This document shows, piece after piece, positions 567 to 10,267 of a stretch of 43,726 nucleotides of DNA. Source of the stretch: an uncultured Oscillospiraceae bacterium (GTDB lineage: Bacteria > Bacillota > Clostridia > Oscillospirales > Oscillospiraceae); assembly GCA_947625045.1 (NCBI GenBank), contig CANQMW010000024.1, positions 1-43,726 of the forward strand, read 5' to 3'. Numbering within the stretch: position 1 is the first letter of the stretch; every line of letters starts with the position of its first letter. Position numbers and translations under genes: made by a program. The notes under the pieces are model-generated. The model was not told the origin of the DNA, ran no database searches, and saw only the letters and a list, made by a program, of their open reading frames with translations.

Positions 567-576
567 CCCCCCCCCC
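567..576 (-). promoter_or_regulatory. Ten-G homopolymer at the ribosome-binding position of the surface gene
   Basis: On the minus strand ten consecutive G end seven bases before the ATG at 559. No AGGAGG-like site is present elsewhere in the leader, so the G run itself is the only element that could pair with the anti-Shine-Dalgarno (using a G-U pair). Homopolymer runs of this length are prone to slipped-strand mispairing, so the spacing or strength of the translation start could vary between cells. This is inference from position. Confidence 0.5.
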
Positions 577-2003: not shown

Positions 2004-5000
2004 TTATTTCTTATGGCTCAGGCCGTCGGCCCAGAGGCCCGTGGCGCTGTTCCAGCTGCCCAGCAGCTCGGACCAGGTGCACTTGCCCGCGGAGCCGGAC
2101 TTCGTCTCGAACCAGCACTCGCCGTACTCGCCGCCGACCCACTGGTAGCCGGTGAGCATCTTGCCGATCTCACCCTTGGCGTCGTTGGGCTGCAGGAAGT
2201 ACCAGCCATACCCGCCGTGCAGGTCATCCAGGTACTGCATGCCGGTCAGCATCTTCCCATCAGGACCCACATAGTACCAGTTCTTATCCCACTGAGAGGC
2301 GCCGTCGATCTTGCCCACCCAGTAGTTCGCCACCAGTTCTCCCTTCTTGAAGAAGTACCACTCGCCGGTGCCGTAGTCATAGCTCCAGCCGGTGCCGCCG
2401 TTTGTCTTGGGAGGCTCCACAGGCACCGTGGGCTCATCGCCGCCGGGGCCGGGGGTCGGGGTCGGGGTGGGCGTGGGCTCATCCCCGCCGGGGCCGGGCG
2501 CAGGCTCGCCGCCGGGGCCGGGCGTGGGCGTGGGGGACGGGCTGGGCGTGCTGGGCGTACTGGGTATGTAGCCGCCGTAGTCTTCAACATACTCCTCTAC
2601 CGGCTCATTGGACACGCCGAAGGCATAGACGGAGAACCTCTGCGCCCGGATGACGAGGTAATTGCCATCCAGGTAATAGCACTCATATCCCGCGTAGGCG
2701 CCCACGGCGGCGCTGACTCTCTTCATGCGCTCCGCCGCTTTGTCGTGGTAGCGGTACACGAACACGTGCTCCTGCTCACTTCCCGCGTATCCCGCCAGCT
2801 CTCCCCGCATCGCCGCGGAGATGGGGAAGCGCAGGGTGAGCAGGCCGGCGGTCTCCGGGACCTTTTCCGGCGGGGCCTTTGTTATGTCGCCGTTGGCGCT
2901 ATAGGTGGAGGTCGTCTTCGTGATGGTCACGTCCACGAGATCAGTGACCGTGTGTTTGACGGTCCCGTCAGCGCCGCTGAGCTCCTCATCGATCTGCTTC
3001 TGGATGGCGTTCACAGCGGTCAGCTGTTCCTTGCTCTCTTTGCCCTCCTCGATCTTATCCGACTTCAGCGTGATATCGATAGCCGTGAGGGGGCCGTCGC
3101 CGCCGCCGGCGGTCTGCTTCTCGTCCTCGGAGATGGCGTCGGCCAGATTGTCCACCGCGGGGAGGCGGTCGCCGTCCACGGCCGTGGACACCAGCACCTC
3201 GTCGAAGATGAATATCTGCTCATCGGTGACGTGGCTCACCGTCAGGCTGTCCGTCATAGTGAGCTTTATGCCGTTCAGCGTATATACGATCTGCACGGTA
3301 TAGACGCCGTAGGACAGGTCTTTGAACGCCGCCCTGCCGTCCTTCGTCGTCGCGGACACCGTCTTGGCGCCGTCTTCGGTCACGGCCGTAAGGGTCACAC
3401 GCGTGCCGTCGATGAGGGTGCCGCCGTTATCCATGACGGTGACGGTCATATCCCCCAGCTGGTTGGCCCTGCCGCCGTTCTCGGTCACGGCCACTTCGCC
3501 CCGCACGGTCACATTGCCCTTGGTGGCGGTGATGCTGCCGTCCGCGGCCACATCCAGGGTCGCGCCGATGTACCCGCCGGTGACGGTCACCTTCCCGCTG
3601 CCGGCCTCATAGGTCAGGCTCTCGCCGGGGGCCAGGCGCAGGCCATCGGCCGGGGGCTCCACGACCATGGTCACGGTGTCGGGCTTCTCCACCGAGCCGT
3701 CCTGATAGATCTTCACCTCGACAGGCTCGCTGCCGGTGTTCGTAAAGGTCTTGCCGTCGATGATCATCACATTGTTGGGGGCCGGTCCCAGCGGCACGAC
3801 GACGCAGCCGTCCGTGTCCACCGTGACGGTATCGCCCAGCTCGCCGCTGACGGTCGTATCGCCCACCCGCAGGCCGTTATATTCGCTGCCACCGAAGGTG
3901 ACGGTCACGCCGCCGCCGTCCGCCGGGGCGACCGTCACACTGCCGGTCATATCCATGGCCACGGCCACGCCGCCGGCGCTCACGCCGTACACGGTCACAT
4001 AGTCGTTCACCGTCAGGGAGCCGGTGACCTTGAACCCGGCGCCGATCACGTTGACGGGGCTGTCGCTGCGGAGGGTCACGCCGGCGGTGATCTCCACCGC
4101 CTCATCCAGCGTCACGTTCCGCCGCACGGTGATCTCCCCGCCGCTCTCGTTGGCCGCCTCGGCGGCCTCCTCGAACGTGAGGTAATACTTCTCGCCTATA
4201 TTCGCCTCGGCGTCCCGGATGACGATGGAGCCGGCCCTGGCGGGCTCCGTGCTCTTATAGTTCGCGCCGCCGTCCGCCTTGTACCAGACATAGTACGTCC
4301 CGGCGTCATGGCCGGTGATCTGGGCGGCGTCGTCCGTCCACGCGGCGCCGGCCGCGGGCACGGCGGCGGTATCCGTCACCGCGTACATCACCGTGCCGTG
4401 TTCGGCGCTGCCCGGCGTCACGATCAGCGCCTGGTCGATGTTTTGATAGTACAGGCCTTCCGCCAGCTCGGGCGCGGTCACCTCGCCCACATCGGCCTTT
4501 CCGATGGTGACGGCCAGGCACCAGGCGCCGTTCCCGTAGTTATCGTCGCCCACGACCCTGTACCAGACGTAGTACGTCCCGGCCTCATCTGCCTTGAATC
4601 CGGCGTAGTCATCCGTCCACCCGCCTGTGGGCGCGGTCACGCCGTCCGTGCCCAGGGCATACTGCACCGTGCCGTGTTTGGCGCTGCCGCCGCTGGTCAG
4701 GAGCTGGTGCTCGCTGCCGTCATAGGTATAATACGCCGCCGTGGGCGGGGTCACATCCGGGTCGCCCTCGGTGATGGTGACGGTGATACATCCCTCCGAT
4801 ATTTCGGAATCCCGCCAGTTGAAGTCGCCCTTCGCCATCCACCAGACGTAATAGGTCCCCGCGTCCTGCGCCGTGGGGACGTCGCCGCTGAAGGCGGAGG
4901 GGTCCGGCGGCGTCCCGGGGTCGGACTGCGTCACCGCGTAAGCCATCCAGCCGTGGTAGGCCGCGCCGGGGGTCACCAGGGCCTGGTTTTCGCCGGTATA

Positions 5001-7730
5001 GGTCAGGCCGGTCACGCCCGCGGGCGCCTGGGTCACGGAGGCGTCTCTGATCTCGTGTACCGTGACGTTAGCGATCCACACGTCGCTTATCACCCAATGA
5101 GGCCAATCATAATACCAATCCCTTTGCATAACATTCCAGCCCCACACATCTACGCCGGCGTTGGGGTCACCACTTTGGAAGTAGCCATAGCCATCCTGCA
5201 CCATACCCAGCAGGAGCGGTTCCAGCTCACCCGGGCCCTGATAATAATACGCGTACACCTTGAGCCCATCGAATGTACCGCCGGTGAGCTTCACATCAAA
5301 GTTTACATAACGTCCATGGCTGTAGCTGTTGTATAAGCAGCGGAAATGGCCGCCGGAGATATTCGCGAAGCAGGCGCCCTCGATCGTCACATCTCCGAGA
5401 TCGCCGCCGGAAACATTCAGCCAGCTTCTTCCGTTCCAAACCGTGCCGTTTTCCCTGAGGTGCACATTGCCGGTGATGTTCGCGCCGTCGCGGACGTTCA
5501 CTTCGGCGGCTACGATGTCCATGTTCGTGATCTCGCCGCCGGAGATATTCAGCGTGCTGTATTTATAATACCAGCGGTTGTCATTCCAGGTATGTACCTC
5601 TCCGACCTCGCCGCCGGTGATATCCACCGTACTGCCGTTGTCGATGTTCAGGGTCCCGATGCTGCCGCCGGCGACCGCCATATGGCCGCCGTCGTTGACC
5701 TGCAGGGTCCCGATATGGACGCCGTTGGTGATCGCCGCGTCGCCGGCGCCGCCGTCGATGTGCAGTCTTTCGATAGTGCCGCTCTGGACGGTCAGCCGGC
5801 CGCCCTGTACGTGCAGGTCGCCCTTGACGGTGCCTTCGCCGGTGATGGTGATATTGCCCCCGGTCATGATGACTTCGGCCGCCTTCGTCTCTTTCTGGAG
5901 GATCATTACTGTGGCGCTGGGCATGTTCTGGGCGGCCGCCATGGCGTTGGCAAAGGAGCCATAGTAGACGAGGCCTATCTGAGCCTCATAGCCCGTTTGT
6001 TTGACTACCACATTTTCCAGCGTTTTACCCGTCGAATTCAAATACGGGCTCGAGGGCTCCAGCAGCTCGCCGCCGGTGGAATAGGACATAAAATATCCGT
6101 ATCCGTGGTCATTATCCAGCAGGTCCAACAGGGTCATGTCCCCGCTCACCGTGATGGAGCCGTACGAGCCGCCGGAGAGCGTCACGCTGCCGCCGTTGAC
6201 GTTCAGGGCGCTGATGCCGCCGTCCGTGACGGTCACCGTGCCGCCGTCGGCGTTCAGGGTCCCGATATTGCCGTTCCGGACAGTCAGCGTGCCGCCGCTC
6301 TGGACGGTCACGTTATCCAGGAACATTTTCCCGTCCACCGTCAGCTCGCCGCCCTGGACAACGGTGAGCGTCCCGTTCACGATGCAGTATCCGCTATCGT
6401 TGTTCAGGGTCACGGATTTATCGATCTTCGTCTCCACGGCGCTGTCCGGGGAAGACAGCAGGTTGACGGTCCCGTTCCCATTTTCTATGGCCTCCTCCAG
6501 CGTGGTATAGTAGACGCCGCCGGACTCCGCCACGGCCACTTGGATGGTGACGGGTATGCATACCGCCGGAACGTCGGCGTAACCGTCGAAGCCCTTGACC
6601 TTGTACCAGACATAATAGGTCCTCACGCTGACCCCGGTGACCCAGGTATAGTCCTCCCTCCAGGCGCTTCCGTCCGCGGGCTCGACGTCGACGAGGCTCT
6701 GGGCGTACATCACCGTGCCGCCGTTGGACTCGCCCGCTGACTTCAGCAGCTGCTGGGAGCGGCCGCTCCAGATCAGGTTCGTCTCGGGCACGGGCTCAGT
6801 CACGATCCTCAGCACGTCCGTGGTGATCGTGACCTGGACGCTCTCAGGCTCGCTGGGCGTATAGTTATCTTTATTGGCTTCATTGCCCGCCGCCCGGTAC
6901 CAGACGGTATAGTTCCCCGCTTTCTTTCCGGTGGGGATCTCGGGGCTGTAGGAGCCCTCCTCATTGGTGAGGCTGTACTGCATCTCGCATCCCGGGGCTT
7001 TAACTTCAACGCCCGCCGTCACCAGCGGATGATCTTTGCCGTCATATTCCAGACCCTCTATCGCCACAGGCGCCGTCTTGACCTGGGCCTGCGCCGGGGA
7101 GACGAGGACCGGGAGGACCCCGCCCCTTACGCCCGCTATATTATTAGCTATGTCAGGCTTGACCCGCCACCAGACATAGTATTCCCCGGCGTCTTTCCCG
7201 GTGGGGACAACAGTCGTCCACGCGGCGTCATCCCCCGGGGCCGCATTCTTCTCCCCCAGGAAATAGAGTACGTCGGAACCGTTCTCGGCGAGCGGACGCG
7301 TCTGGTCGTCGAAAGTCCAGTCCTCGTGGGCTTTCGGCTCTGTATAGGTGGGGTGTATCATCACCCACACATTCTCTAATCCGTTGGGAGGCGTCCACCA
7401 ATCAAACCAATAGTTATCCTTGTCGGCATAGCAGCGGCCCTCACCAAGCGAACTCGTCAACCTGTTTAATTCCAGATTCGCAGAGACTTCATTATCGAGA
7501 TCATCATAATGACCGCCGTATAGCGTTACCTTCCCGTTAACTGGCAGCTCAAAATCTTCGGCCCGGACGTCGTAGCACGTAATTTCCGGACTCGCTCCCT
7601 CAGGGTTTACATCGACATAATAGCCGCTCTTCAGTTCCGCTTTACCGGATATATTCAGTCCTCGATCGAGTCTGACGTTCGCGCCTATCAGCGTCCCTTT
7701 ATCACCCACGCCCACGACACATGACTTCAA
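2004..7730 (-). CDS. Giant secreted surface protein, downstream (3') part after frameshift
   Basis: This open frame encodes 1,908 residues from a TTG at 7730 but is coding from about 7811, where it continues the protein begun at 8272 in another frame. The architecture is typical of large gut-Firmicute adhesin-like proteins. Several MBG/Ig-like modules each end in a Y-Y-V-W-Y or Y-Y-V-W-W signature (for example GTYYVWYKADGG). Between them are long right-handed beta-helix-like stretches rich in short Gly/Asn/Thr repeats (GGNITITGEGTV). A Pro/Thr/Gly linker follows, and the last about 120 residues contain aromatic cell-wall-binding repeats (WYYVGPDGKMLTG, GWYFLQPND, GKMLTGYQWV) of the choline/glucan-binding type. 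It would be held on the wall by these repeats; no sortase motif is seen. Natural product with the 5' part: about 2,090 residues. Confidence 0.8.
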   Translation of the reverse strand: MKSCVVGVGDKGTLIGANVRLDRGLNISGKAELKSGYYVDVNPEGASPEITCYDVRAEDFELPVNGKVTLYGGHYDDLDNEVSANLELNRLTSSLGEGRCYADKDNYWFDWWTPPNGLENVWVMIHPTYTEPKAHEDWTFDDQTRPLAENGSDVLYFLGEKNAAPGDDAAWTTVVPTGKDAGEYYVWWRVKPDIANNIAGVRGGVLPVLVSPAQAQVKTAPVAIEGLEYDGKDHPLVTAGVEVKAPGCEMQYSLTNEEGSYSPEIPTGKKAGNYTVWYRAAGNEANKDNYTPSEPESVQVTITTDVLRIVTEPVPETNLIWSGRSQQLLKSAGESNGGTVMYAQSLVDVEPADGSAWREDYTWVTGVSVRTYYVWYKVKGFDGYADVPAVCIPVTIQVAVAESGGVYYTTLEEAIENGNGTVNLLSSPDSAVETKIDKSVTLNNDSGYCIVNGTLTVVQGGELTVDGKMFLDNVTVQSGGTLTVRNGNIGTLNADGGTVTVTDGGISALNVNGGSVTLSGGSYGSITVSGDMTLLDLLDNDHGYGYFMSYSTGGELLEPSSPYLNSTGKTLENVVVKQTGYEAQIGLVYYGSFANAMAAAQNMPSATVMILQKETKAAEVIMTGGNITITGEGTVKGDLHVQGGRLTVQSGTIERLHIDGGAGDAAITNGVHIGTLQVNDGGHMAVAGGSIGTLNIDNGSTVDITGGEVGEVHTWNDNRWYYKYSTLNISGGEITNMDIVAAEVNVRDGANITGNVHLRENGTVWNGRSWLNVSGGDLGDVTIEGACFANISGGHFRCLYNSYSHGRYVNFDVKLTGGTFDGLKVYAYYYQGPGELEPLLLGMVQDGYGYFQSGDPNAGVDVWGWNVMQRDWYYDWPHWVISDVWIANVTVHEIRDASVTQAPAGVTGLTYTGENQALVTPGAAYHGWMAYAVTQSDPGTPPDPSAFSGDVPTAQDAGTYYVWWMAKGDFNWRDSEISEGCITVTITEGDPDVTPPTAAYYTYDGSEHQLLTSGGSAKHGTVQYALGTDGVTAPTGGWTDDYAGFKADEAGTYYVWYRVVGDDNYGNGAWCLAVTIGKADVGEVTAPELAEGLYYQNIDQALIVTPGSAEHGTVMYAVTDTAAVPAAGAAWTDDAAQITGHDAGTYYVWYKADGGANYKSTEPARAGSIVIRDAEANIGEKYYLTFEEAAEAANESGGEITVRRNVTLDEAVEITAGVTLRSDSPVNVIGAGFKVTGSLTVNDYVTVYGVSAGGVAVAMDMTGSVTVAPADGGGVTVTFGGSEYNGLRVGDTTVSGELGDTVTVDTDGCVVVPLGPAPNNVMIIDGKTFTNTGSEPVEVKIYQDGSVEKPDTVTMVVEPPADGLRLAPGESLTYEAGSGKVTVTGGYIGATLDVAADGSITATKGNVTVRGEVAVTENGGRANQLGDMTVTVMDNGGTLIDGTRVTLTAVTEDGAKTVSATTKDGRAAFKDLSYGVYTVQIVYTLNGIKLTMTDSLTVSHVTDEQIFIFDEVLVSTAVDGDRLPAVDNLADAISEDEKQTAGGGDGPLTAIDITLKSDKIEEGKESKEQLTAVNAIQKQIDEELSGADGTVKHTVTDLVDVTITKTTSTYSANGDITKAPPEKVPETAGLLTLRFPISAAMRGELAGYAGSEQEHVFVYRYHDKAAERMKRVSAAVGAYAGYECYYLDGNYLVIRAQRFSVYAFGVSNEPVEEYVEDYGGYIPSTPSTPSPSPTPTPGPGGEPAPGPGGDEPTPTPTPTPGPGGDEPTVPVEPPKTNGGTGWSYDYGTGEWYFFKKGELVANYWVGKIDGASQWDKNWYYVGPDGKMLTGMQYLDDLHGGYGWYFLQPNDAKGEIGKMLTGYQWVGGEYGECWFETKSGSAGKCTWSELLGSWNSATGLWADGLSHKK

Positions 7731-7762
7731 TTGGTAGTATACTTGATAGGTGTTTGTGAGCG

Positions 7763-8272
7763 TCAGACAGCCGCCTCCGTATTCGCCATCACTCTTCTCG
7801 CCGAGATGGACTGTGTGCCATTGTTGATCGAGATGCAGCCCCAGTCCCCGTTGAACGTGACAGTCACGCCGTCCGGAACATCCGTGTAGACGTACAGGTC
7901 CGTCGTGGGCTTATCCCACGTCAGTGATTCGCTCCAGCAGCTTTGCTCCACGTTGATGGACGCGGTGGACGTGGCCCCTTGTGCCTCTTTCCAGCCATCA
8001 GCCAAAGAATTAAACTGCTTTGCTGGCGCTTCATCCACGCTGACCGCTACCACACCCAAACTGGACTCTACCACATATGTGTTATCCACGGGCGCGGGAA
8101 GGTCCTCCGCCGCCGGGGCGGGCTCTTCCGCGGGCGGCGTCTCTTCCGCCGCGGGCGCCGCCTCCGCCGGGACAGGCTCCTCCGGCGCCATGGGCTCCGC
8201 CGCGAAGACAGGGACCGCCAGCCCCAGCACCATCACGAACGCCAATAACAGACTCAAAGCGCGCTTTTTCAT
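7763..8272 (-). CDS. Giant secreted surface protein, upstream (5') part with signal peptide
   Basis: The frame starts at ATG 8272 with AGGAGGG nine bases upstream and encodes a clear signal peptide (MKKRALSLLLAFVMVLGL, cleavage near VFA). A Pro/Glu/Ala-rich stalk follows, then a beta-rich start of the adhesin region (DVPDGVTVTFNGDWGCISI). After about residue 153 the frame changes to an unrelated tail and stops at 7763, while the adhesin sequence goes on in another frame. If translated alone it gives a short secreted 169-residue fragment without the wall-binding end. Transcription would come from the promoter at 8336-8365, whose spacer contains ten G. Confidence 0.8.
   Translation of the reverse strand: MKKRALSLLLAFVMVLGLAVPVFAAEPMAPEEPVPAEAAPAAEETPPAEEPAPAAEDLPAPVDNTYVVESSLGVVAVSVDEAPAKQFNSLADGWKEAQGATSTASINVEQSCWSESLTWDKPTTDLYVYTDVPDGVTVTFNGDWGCISINNGTQSISARRVMANTEAAV
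7812..7817 (-). other. (CA)3 run at the frameshift point of the giant surface gene
   Basis: On the minus strand the frame before the break reads N-N-G-T and then hits CACACA. Removing one CA gives N-N-G-T-V-H-L-G-E-K-S and joins the two frames without any other change, restoring a protein of about 2,090 residues. A single missing base nearby would also restore it. The cause may be a real slippage event, a fixed mutation or an assembly error. Confidence 0.65.
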
Positions 8273-8335
8273 TATGTATCCCTCCTGTGACGCTTTTATG
8301 GGTATAAAACGCGATGATATATTATGTTATCTTAT

Positions 8336-8365
8336 ATTGTACCCCCCCCCCGGTGGGGTTCGCAA
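8336..8365 (-). promoter_or_regulatory. Promoter of the giant surface gene with ten G in its spacer
   Basis: Read on the minus strand: TTGCGA (8365-8360), an 18-base spacer that ends in ten consecutive G (8351-8342), then TACAAT (8341-8336). The expected transcription start near 8329 leaves a leader of about 57 bases before the AGGAGGG site and ATG. Spacer length strongly affects sigma-A promoters (17 is best), so gain or loss of one G should change output. The same arrangement is known from phase-variable promoters such as Neisseria porA. Confidence 0.6.
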
Positions 8366-8410
8366 CAGCAATTCAGGTTCGATTTCCCGCAATTCGCGTC
8401 AAACGAGCAT

Positions 8411-8438
8411 AAAAAACGCCTCCCCGAGGGGAGGCGTT
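8411..8438 (-). terminator. Terminator of the dipeptidase gene
   Basis: AACGCCTCCCC (8415-8425) pairs with GGGGAGGCGTT (8428-8438). On the minus strand the stem is followed by six T (from A 8411-8416). It lies about 90 bases beyond the dipeptidase stop at 8525 and is the first hairpin of the interspersed repeat. Confidence 0.75.
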
Positions 8439-8443
8439 ACATC

Positions 8444-8510
8444 TTGGAGGCTCCCTTGTGCAAAGGGAGCTGTCGCCGCCGTCAGGCGGTGACTGAGGGA
8501 TCGTCGCGTT
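8444..8510 (+). repeat. Interspersed palindromic repeat, copy 1
   Basis: The segment contains GGAGGCTCCCTTGTGCAAAG and GGGAGCTG (8446-8472), a variable inner hairpin (CGCCGCCGTCAGGCGG) and the conserved end TGACTGAGGGAT (8490-8501) followed by CGTCGCGTT. The same blocks occur at 29480-29543. Elements of this kind are common between genes of Oscillospirales (from memory, not searched). It sits after the dipeptidase gene, next to its terminator hairpin. Confidence 0.75.
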
Positions 8511-8524
8511 ACGGAGGCGGGCAT

Positions 8525-10267
8525 TCATTCTATGCCCAGCGCGGCCTTGTCGGCGAGGCTGGTCTGGCCGTAGCCCACCGCTTCCATCCAATCGGCGGGA
8601 TAGCCGGGGGTCTCGTAATCGTCGCCGGAGGCGTCGGCCGCGGCCACCTGATTGCGGCCCACCTCCTCCATCCATTCGGTGGGATAGCCGGAGGCGTCGC
8701 CGCCGCCGGGGCCGTCGCCCACGACCATGCCGTCCTGATAGCGGCCCACCAGCGTCCAGGCAAAGTCCCACCAGCCCTCGTTGACCGCGTTCATGCTGTC
8801 GTTGACATACGCTGTCAGCACGGCCCTGGCGCCGTCCACGTCGCCGGCGTTCCAGAGCGCGAGGGCCTCGGCCTCCACGCCGGCGTGGCCGGCGAAGAAC
8901 CCGTCCTCATACTTGGCCTTCTCGGCCCGGATGTCGGCGTACATGGCGTCCCAGCGGAGGTTGGCCCAGTTGTTCACGAAGTTGAAGGCCCACCAGGCGC
9001 AGCTGGGGTCGAAATGATAGCGGTCGCCGGTGGACCACGCCTCGGGCACTTCGGTGGTCCCGGCGTACAGGGGCACGTAAACAGTGGTGTCGGGGGCGTC
9101 CTCGCCGAACCACATCAGGCTGCCTATCTCCCCCGGCATGCCGGGCCGGAGCTCGGCCACGAAGCTGTAGCTGCAGCGGTACTGGGCTATCCCGCGCTCC
9201 CAGTCCTCCTCCGCCGCGGCCGCGGGCTTTTCGCCGCCCTGCCAGCGGGTGGGGTCATGGAAGGGGCCGGCGGCCAGACCCTGGGTCAGGTCGTATTCGG
9301 TGCCCTCCAGGTGGTCGCTGTAGATGTCCATGATGTTTTGGACGGTCACAGGCTCGTCGGGCGTGACGGCGAAGTCATAGTGCTCCTGGCGGCCCAGGAC
9401 CTCAAAGTCCCGGGAGGGGGCCAGCAGGCTGAACGCCCGCCACTCCCGGCAGCTGGCGTAGAACTCGTATCCATAGGGCTCGGGGTCAAAGAGCTTGGTG
9501 AAGTTGAAATCCTCCCCCTCCTTCCACCAGCCCAGCTTCTCCGGCAGGGCGGTGATGCCGGTGGACCACATGAACTCGTCGGGGTCGTCAAAGTCGATGA
9601 CGCCGATGCGGGAGCGGTTGGCGCCGACGAAGACCCCGTCGTCGGGCACCCGGCGGGCCGCCCAGTGGGCGCCGGGCGCGCCGCTGCCGGCCGTCCACTG
9701 GGGGCCGCCGCCGCAGATCTCGAATATCCACACCTCGCTGTTGTCGGCCACCAGCAGGCACTCGCCGCCGTCACAGTAGCCGTACTTCTCGGCGAACTCG
9801 CCCATGACACGCACGCACTCCCTGGCGGTGGCGGCGCGGGCCAGGCCGATCTGCTCCAGGTTCGCGATGACCATCATGCCGTTGGGACAGAAGACCTCGT
9901 CGGTGCCGCCCCAGGTGAACTCACTGATGACGACGCCTTTCTCGTTCATGAAGGGATAGGCGATATTGAAGTAGGTGTAGGTCTCGGGGGCCTGGGGGAT
10001 CCGGCCGGCCAGCTTAGGGACCGTCCTGGTGTCGCCGCAGGGGTCGTTGTAGATGTCGACCATCTCGCCGTCGGCGTGGGCGCCGCCCTCCACGATCTGG
10101 ATGCGGTGGTCGTACCAGCCGTCGCAGGTATGGGCGACCAGAACGGAGCCGTCGGCGGAGGCGTCCCTGCCCACCGCGACGGTGGTGCAGGCCAGGGCGC
10201 TGCCGCCCAGGGAGACCGTCAGCGCCGCCGCGAGGACCGCGGACACGAGCTTCTTCAGGTGTTTCAT
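8525..10267 (-). CDS. Secreted C69-family dipeptidase
   Basis: The 580-aa protein begins with a signal peptide (MKHLKKLVSAVLAAALTVSL) that ends directly before CTTVAVGRDAS. In family C69 (PepD/U34) the cysteine at the start of the mature protein is the nucleophile, followed by a D-G-S motif, here ADGSVLVAH. This fits an exported N-terminal-nucleophile dipeptidase that releases amino acids from small peptides. The middle carries family-like stretches (EFTWGGTDEVFCPNG, ARAATARECVRVMGE). The C-terminal 65 residues hold two copies of a Y-P-x-(E/D)-W-M-E-x-V-G unit separated by acidic linkers, which I do not know from the family. The start is supported by GAGGAGGAACCG before the ATG. It is transcribed alone. 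Confidence 0.85.
   Translation of the reverse strand: MKHLKKLVSAVLAAALTVSLGGSALACTTVAVGRDASADGSVLVAHTCDGWYDHRIQIVEGGAHADGEMVDIYNDPCGDTRTVPKLAGRIPQAPETYTYFNIAYPFMNEKGVVISEFTWGGTDEVFCPNGMMVIANLEQIGLARAATARECVRVMGEFAEKYGYCDGGECLLVADNSEVWIFEICGGGPQWTAGSGAPGAHWAARRVPDDGVFVGANRSRIGVIDFDDPDEFMWSTGITALPEKLGWWKEGEDFNFTKLFDPEPYGYEFYASCREWRAFSLLAPSRDFEVLGRQEHYDFAVTPDEPVTVQNIMDIYSDHLEGTEYDLTQGLAAGPFHDPTRWQGGEKPAAAAEEDWERGIAQYRCSYSFVAELRPGMPGEIGSLMWFGEDAPDTTVYVPLYAGTTEVPEAWSTGDRYHFDPSCAWWAFNFVNNWANLRWDAMYADIRAEKAKYEDGFFAGHAGVEAEALALWNAGDVDGARAVLTAYVNDSMNAVNEGWWDFAWTLVGRYQDGMVVGDGPGGGDASGYPTEWMEEVGRNQVAAADASGDDYETPGYPADWMEAVGYGQTSLADKAALGIE

Follow-up and report, generated by a model that had tools for sequence, protein, structure and literature searches.

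Most of the known promoter switches that work by strand slippage come from pathogens. Campylobacter jejuni carries dozens of poly-G tracts per genome, many of them at surface or glycan genes and mostly in coding sequence, and the genome analysed here resembles it in holding a genome-wide poly-G set. In the porA promoter of Neisseria meningitidis, tracts of 11, 10 and 9 Gs give high, medium and low expression, respectively (PMC3639595). For Treponema pallidum, 17 bases is reported as the best distance between the boxes of the tp0126 promoter, and further poly-G promoters are reported at tprL and tprE/G/J (PMC7864442). The pilus G-tracts of Bifidobacterium breve undergo slippage and occur at mixed lengths in culture (PMC9187656). 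The promoter described here occupies positions 8336-8365 of a window of 43,726 nucleotides (the whole stretch of DNA analysed, from an uncultured Oscillospiraceae bacterium). It shares with porA the poly-G between the -35 and -10 boxes and the surface-protein gene (PMC3639595), with Treponema pallidum the presence of promoter poly-G at several surface genes in one genome (PMC7864442), and with Bifidobacterium breve the G tracts at surface genes of a Gram-positive gut commensal (PMC9187656). It differs from porA in belonging to a Gram-positive-type genome, probably of gut Clostridia, with several paralogous promoters and a conserved upstream box, and from tp0126, tprL and tprE/G/J in phylum and genes, while the Bifidobacterium breve pilus tract lies in coding sequence (PMC9187656). 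We infer a gut origin for the window bacterium. The promoter tract is most likely a further case of a known type of switch, and the flanks that such tracts share might be new. The original prediction knew of no described example in gut Clostridia, and the open-licence literature searched likewise contained no account of promoters switched by poly-G in Clostridia.

The promoter lies on the minus strand, where the -35 box TTGCGA (8360-8365), a poor match, is separated from the -10 box TACAAT (8336-8341) by an 18-base spacer (8342-8359) composed of ACCCCACC and ten Gs, the G10 run forming the 3' ten bases of the spacer (8342-8351). Boxes, spacer, terminal run and downstream signal-peptide gene are exactly as originally read, and a homopolymer stands between the two boxes as in promoter-spacer switches of the porA/tp0126 type. 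TTGCGA/TACAAT is the one sigma-70-like promoter found within 8200-8530 (shuffle mean 0.2), and a ribosome-binding site, AGGAGGG, recognised by eye, follows at 8280-8286 (minus). On its upstream side the -35 box is abutted by a 36-base box conserved in the alignment (8366-8401, minus). Between the promoter and the upstream C69 peptidase gene lies an intrinsic-terminator-like hairpin of that gene (8415-8438, read from 8438 to 8415 on the minus strand; shuffle mean 0.4), which insulates the poly-G promoter from it. An inverted dispersed repeat of the GGCTCCCTT...AAGGGAGC type, matched dozens of times elsewhere in the genome, occupies positions 8448-8504. The promoter is flanked by one imperfect inverted repeat of 11 bases (8308-8318 / 8500-8510, 91%), as would be expected of an inverton switched by recombination, and this is the only such pair found around it. 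Its inner arm is unconserved in the alignment of the orthologue and paralogues, and its outer arm sits at the edge of a repeat found in dozens of places, which makes this explanation extremely improbable.

The gene behind the promoter had been described as a giant surface gene, and its signal peptide and its likeness to a large repeat protein of a sister species (genome G023) bear this out, but in the assembly it is broken into two frames. The first, of 169 codons, carries the signal peptide and begins with an ATG at 8272 (7763-8272, minus), and the gene continues in a longer second frame, displaced in the assembly and open for 1932 codons (2004-7802, minus). Both align with consecutive parts of a single open frame in G023, the first with roughly residues 1-188 (52% identity) and the second with roughly 193-833 (62%); the frame split lies near 7800, apart from the G10 run. 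The promoter thus drives a gene with the marks of a surface or secreted protein, as in the porA/tp0126 type, and the product is probably secreted and wall-associated. Pfam searches gave only sub-threshold matches, SpaA-like for the long window frame and Flg_new_2 for the protein of another poly-G promoter locus, L050. At two poly-G promoter loci from elsewhere, L192 and L094 (genome G040, same family), the proteins encoded after the promoter have their first 35 residues in common. Signal peptides were called throughout by a crude hydropathy rule.

The window promoter is not alone in its genome, which contains 28 G runs of at least nine bases, all of 9-11. Seven of them fill the promoter spacers of signal-peptide genes, with G10-11 in 17-18 bases: ten Gs in 18 bases at the window promoter, L048 and L059, ten in 17 at L046 and L050, and eleven in 18 at L058 and L066. 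Alignment of their differing leaders divides these promoters into three families. Seven window-family promoters conserve the 36-base box: the window promoter and three paralogues in this genome, together with three promoters of G023. A related box precedes the family-B genes of both species (contigs C49 and, in the sister, C29). Family C has two copies, L050 (near 2479, plus strand) and L059 (minus strand), in which an inverted repeat, CAACAC-A6-GTGTTG or AACGC-A6-GCGTT, overlaps the -35 box; because the symmetry is kept in both, a further regulator is suggested, and the repeat can be read as a possible repressor site. In G023, a G10 promoter cassette (L135, C16:31949) precedes a serine-recombinase-like fragment and not a surface gene. 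The window also holds a second G10 run at 567-576 (minus), seven bases before an ATG at 559 and thus in the position of a ribosome-binding site; the gene that starts there, another one with a signal peptide, runs past the window start. Judged by position, a length change in this run would affect translation and not transcription.

Orthologous tracts differ in G number: the window promoter has G10, and its orthologue in G023 has G9 in a 16-base spacer. A sister family-B promoter has G7 in 14 bases. Of 25 reciprocal tract pairs from three species, 10 have equal G numbers and the other 15 are one or two Gs apart. Between the window genome and G023, seven of 14 shared tracts differ in G number and seven agree; the flanks show 23 gap events in 3361 columns (0.068 per 10 columns), so that G number changes at about seven times the density of indels in the flanks, and tract length varies more than the flanks between close relatives, with the reservation that the assembly may err by one G. 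Such miscounts by one are stressed in PMC9187656, and single-G differences are therefore weak on their own. The closest pair has a single mismatch in 240 flank columns, yet G9 against G11. The compared loci had been selected for runs of G9 or more; orthologous tracts below that length are therefore under-represented, and the minimum of nine partly reflects this threshold. In one coding pair the G number sets the reading frame, as in coding-tract phase variation: L051, with G9, reads 31 codons and then a stop, and L124, with G10, reads 312. Loss of mismatch repair was considered as a cause and rejected, since 32 of the 35 genomes of the genus, the window genome, G023 and G032 among them, have a MutS1 match above cut-off; its lack in G012, G029 and G034 means little because these genomes are 79-87% complete. 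With MutS1 present in the window genome, no special feature for high slippage was found there.

These differences also bear on the proposal that the G-rich spacer is no length switch but an element of fixed length with a regulatory or structural role, such as one half of a CCCCTCC/GGAGGGG-like dyad operator. Spacers of the window family do start C-rich ahead of the Gs, the run-less paralogue L047 carries CCTCTCGGGAGG in its spacer, and MutS1 is present. Against a fixed element, families B and C carry the run without the dyad, orthologues differ in G number, and run-less promoters retain working-looking boxes; two such promoters of the window family, L047 and C6b of the sister, keep 16-base spacers. 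We regard a fixed element as unlikely, and a length switch of the porA/tp0126 type, set within a larger collection of poly-G tracts, as highly probable.

Could the tract be a functionless product of chance or assembly? G8 words are not rare relative to shuffles, the GC-rich window containing 6 matches against a shuffle mean of 12. Runs of G or C of 4, 5, 6 and 7 bases number 352, 105, 13 and 1 in the window, and extrapolation of this spectrum predicts 0.02 runs of at least ten bases, where 2 are found. For 2.93 Mb a like extrapolation predicts some 8-12 runs, which makes the genome-wide count of 28 a weaker argument; placement is stronger evidence than run counts. G7-TANAAT occurs four times in the window genome and its reversed control not at all. 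Across 35 genus genomes there are 23 matches in 12 genomes, some of them coding and not promoters (e.g., L073, L074), against one genome of 35 each for the reversed word and for C7-TANAAT, and in 300 family genomes the enrichment is mild (26 versus 11 genomes, controls counted by hand). Assembly does produce long runs in some relatives: in G001 and G002 most of those fetched (17 regions) border a contig end or an N gap or fall within a G-rich stretch and resemble artefacts of sequencing, and the G9-word counts of these two genomes were set aside as a measure of switching. The window run, in contrast, is contig-internal, has counterparts at the equivalent position in paralogues and in the sister species, and belongs to a strand-specific enrichment, which leaves chance or misassembly highly improbable.

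The promoter-spacer poly-G architecture extends beyond the window species. A named scan for TTGA...G8-TAYAAT, whose hits are not a random sample, returned at least 117 stretches; the loci among the matches listed belong mainly to gut Clostridia and Bacilli and also include Streptobacillus, Streptococcus, Treponema, Helicobacter and non-gut bacteria. Eighty loci among the matches listed carry 83 poly-G promoters, for 73 of which a downstream start was found, and by the hydropathy rule 58 of these 73 precede a signal-peptide or membrane-like gene. In the same listed loci, such genes follow 8 of 30 run-less control promoters (those with a start among 50 detected) and make up 89 of 281 background genes. 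A class-wide scan for the design gave 15 matches in 10 of 391 genomes, compared with 1 of 391 for the reversed control. Viral contigs gave five hits. The spacers of the 83 poly-G promoters among the matches listed measure 16 (n=14), 17 (n=10), 18 (n=28) and 19 bases (n=31). The excess of 18-19 bases may mean either that the sequenced states are mostly low ones or that promoters with G-rich spacers work best with their boxes farther apart. That one G fewer would bring the window promoter to its ideal 17-base spacing, as the original prediction proposed, is therefore a conjecture.

The tracts also share flanks. Of 100 usable G9+ runs from three species, 71 are non-redundant; their flanks are A-rich at -11 to -7 and have a pyrimidine at -1 (C 68%, T 30%), and T occupies +1 in 96% of runs versus 24% of G5-6 control runs. 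With promoters and leader-peptide-like sites left out, T stands at +1 in 54 of 56 runs against 190 of 793 controls and an upstream AAA in 33 of 56 against 46 of 793. Five more genus genomes (54 of 75 listed runs fetched) gave T at +1 in all 47 non-redundant runs and AAA in 21 of the 47 (controls 9/152). By hand count over 15 genus genomes, T follows 113 of 133 runs, with G005 (5/11) and G029 (5/10) as exceptions, and the mostly artefactual runs of G001 and G002 lack the bias (T in 7/21). An A-to-G change beside the run could remove a flanking A; it explains neither T over C nor the A-rich stretch. Inverted repeats just 3' of the tracts were examined as a general feature and discarded (score of at least 6 in 6 of 106 non-redundant tracts and in 9 of 318 control windows). 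Because promoters, genes for small leader peptides and genes of glycan operons all show these flanks, the tracts of the genus may constitute a defined element (A-rich stretch, 5-7 bases, pyrimidine, G9-12, T) that a dedicated factor creates, seeds or maintains, an idea we put forward tentatively and with considerable doubt.

Several other gene contexts carry such tracts. G9-12 tracts lie near the starts of small-peptide genes in the window genome (L045, L052, L056, L062, L064, L065) and in relatives (L127, L139, L142, L145, L155, L158, L175), many of them ending a leader with VAGG/VTGG-like motifs. L045 matches Nif11, just above the cut-off in Pfam and just below it in NCBIfam, and L065 and L145 gave no family match. 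RiPP-precursor-like genes may be frame-switched by the tracts. In G032, one gene after another (L151, L154, L162, L163, L172) carries a G9-11 tract internally or at its 3' end, and such tracts occur in a similar operon setting in other genus members (L368, L392); from the look of the sequence we take these to be glycan-biosynthesis operons. At a response-regulator-like gene (L049 in the window genome, G10; L136 in G023, G9), the tract directly follows an upstream ATG that reads a short out-of-frame peptide at both lengths, of 28 codons in L049 and 9 in L136.

In the porA-type switch that we favour, replication slippage would add or remove Gs in the spacer tract, the changed number would shift the -35 and -10 boxes relative to each other in both spacing and helical twist, and the secreted protein would then be transcribed at differing levels among the cells of one population. 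The window promoter would be one of several that carry a partly shared cassette on large signal-peptide proteins, and the promoter tracts would belong to a wider poly-G set also present in coding sequences; the benefit would presumably be surface diversity. The original prediction of such a switch is supported in part: the design recurs in the genome, is specific in strand and position, goes with signal-peptide genes, and has G numbers that vary among orthologues and paralogues. Mixed lengths within one population and an effect on transcription we infer.

In all, the same promoter design marks surface genes in an anaerobic, gut-type lineage and occurs across gut Clostridia and Bacilli. The shared flanks raise the separate question of tract origin, and if a dedicated factor exists, the bacterium would have a tract-making system, beyond merely slippery sequences. 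For the gut community, the prediction is that single-species populations would be mixtures of surface states, which deep sequencing could read from G counts.
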